DNA of 33,831 bases from contig WFRY01000330.1 in the NCBI GenBank assembly GCA_015486315.1, positions 1 through 33,831 of the forward strand, read 5' to 3'. Source of the stretch: Desulfobulbaceae bacterium (GTDB taxonomy: Bacteria > Desulfobacterota > Desulfobulbia > Desulfobulbales > Desulfobulbaceae). The notes under the pieces were generated by a model, which saw only the letters and a list, made by a program, of their open reading frames with translations, did no database searches and was not told where the DNA came from. Positions within the stretch are counted from its first letter, which is position 1. Each line of letters begins with the position of its first letter. A program made the translations under genes and the position numbers. Below, in pieces: positions 4,064-30,132 of this stretch.

Positions 4064-4266
4064 GTAACTATTCAGGAGCAGCTCACGGAGTCTGCGCTTA
4101 CCTCTTCACCCATTTAAACCCTCTCGAGTAGCATAAGTACGCTTCGCGGTCTTAAATGAACAGGTAGATAAGCGAAGACTTCGAGCGTAGACTCCGAATC
4201 TAAGGCACTCCCGAACAGTTACAGGCTGGTGGTATTGCCAATGTATTTTACTACCTGAAGAGTTAC
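4064..4266. mobile_element. MITE, family A copy 1 (203 bp, 8-bp target duplication)
   Basis: The element begins GTAACTATTCAGGAGC and ends CTACCTGAAGAGTTAC, which are imperfect inverted repeats. It is flanked by the perfect direct repeat GAAAAGAG at 4056-4063 and 4267-4274. Inside, a long hairpin is built from CCCATTTAA and TCTTAAATG and extended by arms GGAGTCT and AGACTCC that copy 2 lacks. An inverted copy of the end (CCCGAACAGTTAC) finishes at 4222, 44 nt before the outer end. It carries no ORF. GTAA ends and 8-bp duplications are features of the IS66 family, so an IS66-type transposase is the likely mover (inference). It lies between the divergent als-like and AAA-ATPase genes. Confidence 0.88.
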
Positions 4267-4488
4267 GAAAAGAGTTGCGCTGGGGCGTATTTATCCGTCA
4301 CTCCCTTCTGACAGAGAAAATAAGAAAAAACAACCGGTGGTTGAAAAAGAGGTTTACAGAAAGGCTCAAGTGTCTGATAATTACCCCCTATATACCTGCA
4401 AAATATTTCGGGTTGTAATAAGTATACCAAGTCACCATGTTACGACTATCTACCCGATTCAAAATGACTCAATAAAATTGCTGACAAA

Positions 4489-6284: not shown

Positions 6285-6360
<76 letters not shown>

Positions 6361-12423: not shown

Positions 12424-12571
12424 GTATGCGCAACTACACTCTTAACATAACAACACCACGGAATGTAAGCGTTTCAGGAACGCCCTGCTGTGCGTGATCA
12501 AGTCCCCCGATAATACCCCTGTATATCTGGGGACTTGAGCGCGTGCAGCAGGGCGTTCATGGAGCGCTTAC
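12424..12571. mobile_element. MITE, family B copy 1 (148 bp, near-perfect long palindrome)
   Basis: The 107 bp from 12465 to 12571 form a giant hairpin: GTAAGCGTTTCAGGAACGCC matches the inverse of the right end (ATGGAGCGCTTAC), and arms TCAAGTCCCC and GGGGACTTGA lie inside. Aligning it with the copy at 19162-19304 in reverse orientation extends the left side to about 12424 (GTATGCGCAACTAC). The flanks TCTTTTTA and TCTTTACC agree in 5 of 8 positions, suggesting a decayed target duplication. It ends 3 bp from the stop of the transporter gene, in a convergent gap where its hairpin could act as a two-way terminator. The left boundary is approximate. Confidence 0.75.
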
Positions 12572-15643: not shown

Positions 15644-15795
15644 GTAACTATTCAGGAGCACCTCATCTTCGCCCATTTAAGCCTGCTCGAGTAGCACTAG
15701 TACACTTCACAGTCTTAAATGAACGAATCTAAGGCACTCCTGAACAGTTACAGGACGGTGGTTTTGCAAGTTTTCTGCACCACCTGAATAGTTAC
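15644..15795. mobile_element. MITE, family A copy 2 (152 bp, 8-bp target duplication) in the argB leader
   Basis: Begins GTAACTATTCAGGAGC and ends CACCTGAATAGTTAC: the outer 13 bases are perfect inverted repeats. The flanks are the perfect direct repeat CAATTATT (15636-15643 and 15796-15803). The internal hairpin uses CATTTAAG and CTTAAATG. An inverted end copy (CACTCCTGAACAGTTAC) finishes at 15751, then GGTGGT and ACCACC form a small hairpin before the outer end. It shares most of its sequence with copy 1 at 4064. It lies 24 bp upstream of the argB start and downstream of the argB promoter candidate, so it should be transcribed in the argB-argD leader. Confidence 0.93.
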
Positions 15796-15819
15796 CAATT
15801 ATTATATATAAAATCTAAA

Positions 15820-18729: not shown

Positions 18730-19176
18730 ATGGTACAACTGGAAGGCGAATGCATAATTCCTGAACTGGAATCAAGCGGCAAAGAAGCTGTGCTGCGGGA
18801 ACTTGCGGAGACCGTGCATCATAAATGCACATTGATCGATATCGACACCCTGTACACAGTTCTGACGGAACGTGAACAGCTTGGTTCCACCGGAGTCGGC
18901 AATGGCGTTGCCATCCCGCACGGCAAGGTAAGCGGCCTGGAAAAACTGCTGCTCTGTCTTGGCCGCTCCAGGACCGGGATCAGCTTTGATGCCGTGGACA
19001 ACCGGCCTGTTCACCTCTTTGTGATGATCCTCTCGCCGCCGGGCATGGCCGAAGAATACCTGCAGACCCTGGCCAGGGTGAGCAAACTTCTCAAAGATGA
19101 CAATATAAGAAACAAATTCCTGCAGGCAGCAGATGTCGAGACTATCCTGGAACTGTTCAACGGAAGCGCTCCATGA
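18730..19176 (+). CDS. ptsN: PTS IIA-like nitrogen-regulatory protein PtsN (EIIA-Ntr), C-terminus altered by MITE insertion
   Basis: A phosphoacceptor of the nitrogen-related phosphotransferase system (PtsP-Npr-PtsN), generally regulatory. The phosphorylated His is His64 in VAIPHGKV. Other family stretches are LGSTGVGNG and LFVMILSPPGMAEEYLQTLARVSKLL. It lies 12 bp after rpoN; hpf, often between them, is absent. The last codons GGA AGC GCT CCA TGA belong to a family B MITE whose 8-bp duplication begins at 19154. Beyond the element the old frame is still readable: the duplicated TGTTCAAC continues as CGC TCA TAA. The original protein therefore probably ended ELFNRS, and now ends ELFNGSAP. Function is unlikely to be lost. 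Confidence 0.93.
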   Translation: MVQLEGECIIPELESSGKEAVLRELAETVHHKCTLIDIDTLYTVLTEREQLGSTGVGNGVAIPHGKVSGLEKLLLCLGRSRTGISFDAVDNRPVHLFVMILSPPGMAEEYLQTLARVSKLLKDDNIRNKFLQAADVETILELFNGSAP

Positions 19177-19304
19177 ACGCCCTCAAGTCCCCCGAATACA
19201 AGAGGGTATAACCAGGGGTCTCGCTCACGCACAGCAGGACGTTCCTGAAACGCTTACATTCTGAAGTGTTATCAAGTCAAGAGTGGCGTTAATGACGCAC
19301 TTAC
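19162..19304. mobile_element. MITE, family B copy 2 (143 bp, 8-bp target duplication) inserted in the 3' end of ptsN
   Basis: Flanked by the perfect direct repeat TGTTCAAC (19154-19161 and 19305-19312). The left end GGAAGCGCTCCATGAACGCC and the inverse of the right end, GTAAGTGCGTCATTAACGCC, agree at 16 of 20 positions. An internal inverted end copy (GTTCCTGAAACGCTTAC) finishes at 19257, 47 nt before the outer end. It is homologous, in reverse, to 12424-12571 (shared ATGAACGCC, CAAGTCCCC, CACAGCAGG and CCTGAAACGCTTACATTC). It has no ORF. It supplies the stop codon of ptsN and separates it from the convergent DAHP synthase gene. Confidence 0.92.
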
Positions 19305-19328
19305 TGTTCAACCGCTCATAATAAACAT

Positions 19329-19368
19329 AAAAAGGCGGTATTTGATTCAGCTGAACCCTGAACCGCCT
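19329..19368 (-). terminator. Terminator of the DAHP synthase gene
   Basis: On the minus strand AGGCGGT and ACCGCCT form a stem whose loop contains a further inner pairing (TTCAGCTGAA), followed by TTTTT. It begins 11 nt after the stop codon. Confidence 0.75.
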
Positions 19369-19378
19369 CTGCCTGTTA

Positions 19379-20728
19379 TCAATTTCTGATCATCTCCGCA
19401 ATCTGAAACGCCATCTCCAGGGATTGTTCGGCATTGAGCCGGGGATCACAGGTCGTCAGATAGTTCCGGCCCAGCTGTTCGTCAGCGAGCTGACGTGCAC
19501 CGCCGGTACACTCGGTAACATCATCACCGGTAAGTTCAAAGTGAACCCCGCCCGGTACTGTTCCCTCTGCCCAGTGCAGTTCAAAAAAGCAGCGAAGTTC
19601 CGACAGGATATCATCAAAACTGCGGGTCTTGTGACCGCCCTCGGTCTTGCGGATATTGGCATGCATGGGATCACAGCTCCAGAGAACGTTCATACCCTCT
19701 TTTTTAACTGCCCGCAGCAGGGGGGGCAGATATTTTTCAATATCGTGTGCTCCAAAACGGGCAATCAGGGTCATCCGGCCCGCCTCATTCTCCGGGTTCA
19801 GCCGCTCAATGATGGCGAGAATATCGTCGATATCATGCTTGGGTCCAACCTTCATACCCAGTGGATTGAGAACACCACGCAGAAACTCGACATGGGCACC
19901 GTCAATCTGACGGGTACGGTCACCAATCCACAACATATGGCCGGAACAGTCGTACCAGCCGCCGTCCATTGAGTCTTCCCGGGTCAGCGACTCCTCATAA
20001 CCGAGAAATAATGCCTCATGGGAGGTAAAGAACTGGGCCTGCTTGAGCTGCGGCGCATCGGTATCGATACCAATGGTTTCCATAAAGGCAAGGGCCTGGC
20101 TGATCTGCTTGGCCAACCGTTCGTACGAACGTCCCATGGGGGACTGTTTAACAAACTCCTGATTCCAGGCCTGAACCTTGTGCAGGGCTCCGAACCCTCC
20201 CCTGGTAAAGGCCCGCAGCAGATTCAGGGTGGCGGCGGACATATTGTATCCCTGAAGAAGCCGCCGGGGATCAGGAATACGCGACTCCAGATCAGGCTGT
20301 ACTGCATTTGCCATATCACCACGATAACTGGGCAGTTCAACTCCGTTGACCATCTCGGTGTCGCTGGAACGGGGCTTGGCATACTGACCGGCAATACGAC
20401 CGACCTTGACCACTGGTTTGCCACCGGCATAGGTCAGGGTAACAGCCATCTGCAGGAGTACTTTCAAGGTATCCCTGATATTGGGAGCGGTACAGCGGGA
20501 AAACTCTTCCGAACAGTCCCCCCCCTGCAGCAGAAAGGCCTCGCCCTTTACCGCCTTGGCAAGTCCGGCCTTGAGATCACGAATTTCACCGGCAAATACC
20601 AGGGGCGGCAGGGACGCTATGGTCGCCAGGATTTCGTTGAGTTTTGTTTCATCCGGCCAGTTGGGCTGTTGCAGAGCAGTAAAATTATGCCAGGAAGACT
20701 TGGTCCAGTTATCTGTTGTATTGGTCAT
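19379..20728 (-). CDS. Class II (plant-type) 3-deoxy-7-phosphoheptulonate synthase
   Basis: Condenses phosphoenolpyruvate and erythrose 4-phosphate to DAHP, the entry to the shikimate pathway. The class II (AroA-II) family is clear from FAGEIRDLKAGLAKA, FLLQGGDCSEEF, PVVKVGRIAGQYAKPRSS, LPSYRGDMAN, FFTSHEALFLGYEESLTR and WSCDPMHANI, with metal and PEP ligands in these motifs. At 449 residues it has the standard length. It is transcribed alone on the minus strand with its own terminator. The ribosome site is weak (AAAGAAA). No other aromatic pathway gene is adjacent. Allosteric properties cannot be told from the sequence. Confidence 0.95.
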   Translation of the reverse strand: MTNTTDNWTKSSWHNFTALQQPNWPDETKLNEILATIASLPPLVFAGEIRDLKAGLAKAVKGEAFLLQGGDCSEEFSRCTAPNIRDTLKVLLQMAVTLTYAGGKPVVKVGRIAGQYAKPRSSDTEMVNGVELPSYRGDMANAVQPDLESRIPDPRRLLQGYNMSAATLNLLRAFTRGGFGALHKVQAWNQEFVKQSPMGRSYERLAKQISQALAFMETIGIDTDAPQLKQAQFFTSHEALFLGYEESLTREDSMDGGWYDCSGHMLWIGDRTRQIDGAHVEFLRGVLNPLGMKVGPKHDIDDILAIIERLNPENEAGRMTLIARFGAHDIEKYLPPLLRAVKKEGMNVLWSCDPMHANIRKTEGGHKTRSFDDILSELRCFFELHWAEGTVPGGVHFELTGDDVTECTGGARQLADEQLGRNYLTTCDPRLNAEQSLEMAFQIAEMIRN

Positions 20729-30103: not shown

Positions 30104-30132
30104 GTAAGCGCTCCATGAACACCCTGCTGCCA
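30104..30132 (+). mobile_element. Solo end of a family B MITE (fragment)
   Basis: GTAAGCGCTCCATGAACACC, continuing CTGCTG, matches the end of copy 12424-12571 with one difference over 26 bases, then diverges. No second end or target duplication was found within about 200 bp, so this is a truncated remnant. It sits 12 bp after the nucleotidase-like stop codon. Confidence 0.7.

Follow-up and report, generated by a model that had tools for sequence, protein, structure and literature searches.

Our analysis makes it very probable that insertion of an IS66-type MITE gave the ptsN gene of a Desulfobulbaceae bacterium (GenBank assembly GCA_015486315.1) a new 3' end, leaving the old end beyond the right target-site duplication, and that the change of tail survived, probably because it was near-neutral. 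The window is the whole stretch of DNA analysed (33,831 nucleotides; contig WFRY01000330.1, positions 1 to 33,831 of the forward strand), and positions refer to it unless a locus is named. The features at the insertion site are as follows.

18730 to 19176, plus strand: ptsN (PTS EIIA-Ntr) open reading frame, 148 amino acids, ending LELFNGSAP-stop (ORF list; Pfam PF00359)
19154 to 19161, plus strand: left target-site duplication TGTTCAAC, within the ptsN codons L-F-N (read directly)
19162 to 19304, plus strand: degraded 143-bp copy of a 154-bp MITE, IS66-type by structure, with left end GGAAGCGCTCC and right end GACGCACTTAC (consensus alignment)
19162 to 19176, plus strand: element-coded PtsN end, GGA AGC GCT CCA TGA, G S A P stop (read from sequence; family consensus)
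19305 to 19312, plus strand: right target-site duplication TGTTCAAC (read directly)
19313 to 19321, plus strand: stranded earlier ptsN end, CGC TCA TAA (R S stop) once joined to the left duplication
19334 to 19367, no strand assigned: GGCGGT...ACCGCC hairpin between convergent genes (sequence and RNA fold)
19379 to 20728, minus strand: class II DAHP synthase gene, convergent to ptsN (PF01474, E 9.4e-203)

The PTS_EIIA_2 domain (PF00359) matches residues 4–144 of the ptsN product (E 1.3e-27, Pfam profile search), reaching the Phe-Asn immediately ahead of the element. The gene lies directly 3' of a sigma-54 gene (PF04552, PF04963, PF00309), and an ABC ATPase gene precedes (Pfam); the domain and the rpoN operon context together identify the protein as PtsN. 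Its stop codon, TGA at 19174–19176, lies within the element, whose first 12 bases encode GSAP, as the sequence-only reading had claimed in describing a protein that ends FNGSAP with its stop inside the element. At the same place, the family consensus reads GTA AGC GCT CCA TGA (V S A P stop). The two 8-bp duplications around the copy match perfectly, and excising the element with one of them yields CTG TTC AAC CGC TCA TAA. The earlier placement of a "family B" copy, with a duplicated flanking sequence, in the ptsN frame is borne out by the duplications at 19154–19161 and 19305–19312 and by an end-to-end match to the consensus; the interval it gave, 19154–19321, runs exactly from the first duplication through the TAA.

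The element belongs to a family with at least dozens of near-complete copies, among the best candidates scored, in the window's own genome, a draft of 485 contigs (89% complete, 6% contamination); these family counts rest on sampled loci and pattern totals. A 17-base end motif occurs five times in the window, versus 0.07 expected, and 256 times in the genome, versus none for the reversed control. The left-end motif, with up to one mismatch, occurs 135 times in the genome (control, 0). Among 47 unique full-length copies having both flanks, 37 carry an 8-bp duplication that is perfect (32 copies) or has one mismatch (five copies); when the flanks were moved 10 bases outward, none of the 47 did, and none had fewer than three mismatches. 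Given these rates, the ptsN copy is bounded independently by family ends and duplication. Two further copies lie in the window.

12432 to 12571, minus strand: second MITE copy, without its right end, intergenic
30104 to 30130, plus strand: 27-bp left-end fragment of the MITE

Aligned end to end with the consensus, which was built from copies in this genome, the ptsN copy is identical at 121 of 141 aligned bases (86%) and has a 12-bp deletion; it starts GGAAGCG, and its right end is GTAAGTG. Since copies typically match the consensus at 97% identity, the ptsN copy is probably an older insertion. Alternatively, it may be a member of a divergent subfamily, a reading that we do not favour over greater age.

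By structure, the MITE is IS66-type. The IS66 family has ends beginning GTAAGCG and generates 8-bp target duplications (PMC11946415; for the duplications, also PMC3281130). The MITE shares both features, with terminal inverted repeats that begin GTAAGCG (consensus left GTAAGCGCTCCATGAAC; right, reversed, GTAAGCGCTTCATTAAC), and is a short repeated element without a transposase. IS66 elements are ∼2.5–3 kb with a transposase, whereas the MITE is 154 bp or shorter and lacks one, and its internal sequence matched no IS66 parent in this analysis. There are four matches to the IS66 transposase (PF03050) in the genome. One remnant, on contig C156, has the end GTAAGCGCCTCATCAAGCA adjoining a transposase C-terminus. 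No intact IS66 with the MITE's exact ends was found in the draft genome; the two intact copies have other inverted repeats, which do not begin GTAAGCG, and were not accepted as direct parents. The affiliation is thus structural. The end of locus L082 (contig C178) carries part of an IS66 transposase that passes into CTGTCTCTTATACACATCT as the contig runs out; those letters resemble sequencing adaptor left in the assembly.

The genome also holds variant forms. Very short internal-deletion derivatives occur at L007 (near 1703, plus strand), L167 (near 99, minus strand), L222 (1501–1548) and L194 (1501–1583); they include a 23-bp form, GTAAGCGCTCCATGAACGCTTAC, between duplications (CAATCATA at L007), and forms of 48, 62, 70 and 83 bp are also present. 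The internal deletions seem to fuse short repeats lying close to the terminal sequences of the element. Truncated copies at L170 and L189, with the left end at 1501, have flanking repeats that look ∼12 bp long (e.g. CTTATTTATTTT), longer than the usual 8 bp and unexplained by simple insertion. Composite elements of ∼261–319 bp at L177, L188, L228 and L232 combine MITE ends with a different, hairpin-rich core, and some begin with sequence like GTAACTTCTCAATAAGTGGTG. An unrelated second repeat, CGAATCTAAGGCACTCC...GAACAGTTACAGG, has two copies in the window (4103–4269 and 15666–15798; 81–85% identical over two blocks), and similar sequence lies beside a MITE left end in locus L192.

The closest relative found, G002 (same genus, PtsN 77% identical), provides an empty site. 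As the sequence-only reading had anticipated of close relatives, its ptsN 3' end lacks the element and reads GAACTGTTCAACCGCTCA without interruption, identical to the joined window flanks at 18 of 18 bases over the junction. Aligned to G002, the joined flanks score 273 and the occupied site 235, and in both genomes the end of the convergent DAHP synthase gene follows ptsN. PtsN of G007, from the same family, has the tail FNRPV; further tails from the genus are FTSHTLSK, FNQQIGS and FSRKNVKDN. Among 109 related loci whose PtsN-like C-terminus is complete, we found neither an SAP ending nor a left-end motif near ptsN, and so none of these has the GSAP ending without the element; most of the named relatives that PtsN led to belong to the Desulfobulbaceae. 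The empty site, the relatives' tails and the lack of SAP among these 109 loci mark FN-RS as the old sequence and, at the level of sequence comparison, confirm the residues FNRS as ancestral at the junction.

The position of the ancestral stop is less certain, because G002 continues for five residues past FNRS. At the junction it reads CTG TTC AAC CGC TCA, then CCAGTCCCAACTCCATAA, so that its PtsN ends FNRSPVPTP; CGCTCA of the stranded end is matched at the same place and TAA is not. Joining across the element, as the earlier reading proposed, thus recovers the ancestral residues; the exact stop after FNRS did not hold in this relative. The insertion may be real and the ancestral gene may have ended further 3', with FNRS and a short tail as in G002, the TAA having arisen later by drift. 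The 13–15 extra bases ahead of the G002 stop, where the window has TAA, point this way, and the sequence past the element would have been free of coding constraint since the insertion. On the other hand, relatives have tails of freely varying length (from FNS-stop to FNTSPPENTISPL-stop), which makes an ancestral FNRS-stop equally plausible. We give a later origin of TAA slightly less than even credence; that the gene stopped exactly at TAA 19319–19321, in an uninterrupted TTCAACCGCTCATAA, is itself a guess.

The ending seen in PtsN recurs on other proteins. At least six Pfam-recognisable genes, PtsN and five others, end (V)SAP-stop at the left end of the MITE, and seven ORFs of at least 100 residues in the sampled loci end SAP-stop exactly there. 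The other six ORFs, by locus, are as follows.

L012: CreA, SAP-stop end (PF05981, E 1.5e-54)
L175: LysR regulator, SAP-stop end (Pfam), element copy truncated or altered
L201: phosphatidylserine decarboxylase (PSD), SAP-stop end (Pfam, E 4e-45)
L228: radical-SAM-like protein, SAP-stop end (E 8.9e-5, under Pfam's cut-off)
L234: CxxCxxCC protein, SAP-stop end (Pfam), element copy truncated or altered
L211: membrane ORF without an assigned family, SAP-stop end

Relatives of CreA, PSD and LysR never carried the SAP tail; their tails were other and variable. Removal of the element restores an immediate stop in the PSD and radical-SAM-like genes, and the restored PSD is about as long as its relatives. 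That short repeats happen to surround an unrelated stretch, with GSAP an ordinary lineage-specific PtsN tail, draws on the variability of PtsN tails and is extremely improbable given a high-copy family matched end to end, an exact duplication, an exact empty site and the recurrence of the tail on unrelated proteins. A chance match is ruled out by the empty site, the family boundaries and the motif and duplication controls.

The consensus has no transposase gene, and its longest frame from either end is 26 amino acids. From the left end, frame 0 reaches TGA after four codons, frame 1 gives a 24-residue tail and frame 2 stops immediately at the element's own GTAA; from the right end, the tails are 10, 1 and 26. 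Recognisable genes enter at the left end 11 times (seven in frame 0 and four in frame 2, at L024, L185, L215 and L222) and at the right end once (L002), and at L222 (LolA) the element simply recreates the original TAG. Among sampled loci, no recognisable gene lies in the 24- or 26-residue long-tail frames; the gene count leaves out the ORFs that run into the element at L188, L195, L199, L216, L225, L236 and L003, none of which matched Pfam. The 11-to-1 bias (P = 0.006) is given little weight: it was counted post hoc, and using the left-end motif to collect some of the loci favours left ends. Selection might maintain the (V)SAP frame and the orientation toward the upstream gene, making the left end a benign mobile stop cassette; the frame and end counts above are post hoc signs of this, although we consider it unlikely.

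The copy at the end of ptsN could instead have been kept for a function in the operon, for instance as an mRNA 3' hairpin altering stability or termination. The folding of the region's transcript is somewhat better than that of shuffled versions (z −2.2), and the left-end bias would fit such a role. However, the ptsN copy has decayed, as expected without selection, that bias is subject to the sampling just described, and a terminator-like hairpin, probably common to both convergent genes, is already present at 19334–19367. We therefore regard a retained function as improbable. No known RNA family was matched at the site by Rfam at the gathering threshold; the only match in the window is a tRNA (6288–6360).

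The preferred account, re-ending of ptsN by the MITE, would run as follows. An IS66-family transposase would have inserted the non-autonomous MITE in the last ptsN codons, duplicating 8 bp (TGTTCAAC). Because a stop codon lies a few codons into the left end, translation would then have ended inside the element, with R-S, and whatever came after, replaced by V-S-A-P. The first tail was probably VSAP, since the consensus has GTA at the first codon, and a single T-to-G substitution would later have made it GSAP. The old end would remain untranslated past the right duplication. Met in the same frame, this left end also produced the VSAP-stop endings on other genes in the genome. The insertion may have survived because it hit the tail beyond the EIIA domain, which is variable in relatives too, and judging from these sequences, it was probably close to neutral for PtsN. 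The element did replace the tail; to say that it "rewrote" the C-terminus, as the sequence-only reading did, is too strong, as the change adds just two residues to a tail that differs among all relatives.

The closest precedent in the open-licence literature is that of QMITE1 and QMITE2 in Coxiella burnetii, which insert at the 3' ends of functional genes (ubiB, pntAA, mutT, nagZ, ogt, recN and others) and supply a stop or short C-terminal tail; enhC is lengthened by an in-frame copy (PMC5896051). The present MITE likewise yields a stop or short tail at gene 3' ends. However, the QMITEs are different families, and most of their listed tails differ by gene, whereas here one end in one frame puts the same four-residue VSAP tail on several genes. 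Rickettsia palindromic elements, like the MITE, are ∼150 bp, repeated and joined to host proteins, but they keep the frame open and lie within proteins (PMC10969869, PMC2229807); the MITE brings a stop after a few codons and so survives only at gene ends. The 155-bp Correia element of Neisseria is also small and mobile, with stops in its reading frames, but is almost never found in ORFs (PMC2229807), whereas the MITE is at several gene ends. Given the Coxiella precedent and the in-frame MITE fusions described in reviews (PMC10969869, PMC2229807), ptsN is a well-documented new example of a known phenomenon, and its distinctive feature is the recurring identical tail.

The ptsN locus is a clean, relative-bracketed case in which a mobile element replaces the C-terminus of a conserved regulator, with both ends of the element and the former gene end visible. 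For annotation, it warns that an identical C-terminal tail on unrelated proteins can mark an element rather than homology. Across the genome, the SAP tail shared by at least six recognisable proteins offers a natural experiment in which C-termini can accept one standard addition. If the stop-cassette reading were true, the family would persist by harmless capping of gene 3' ends.
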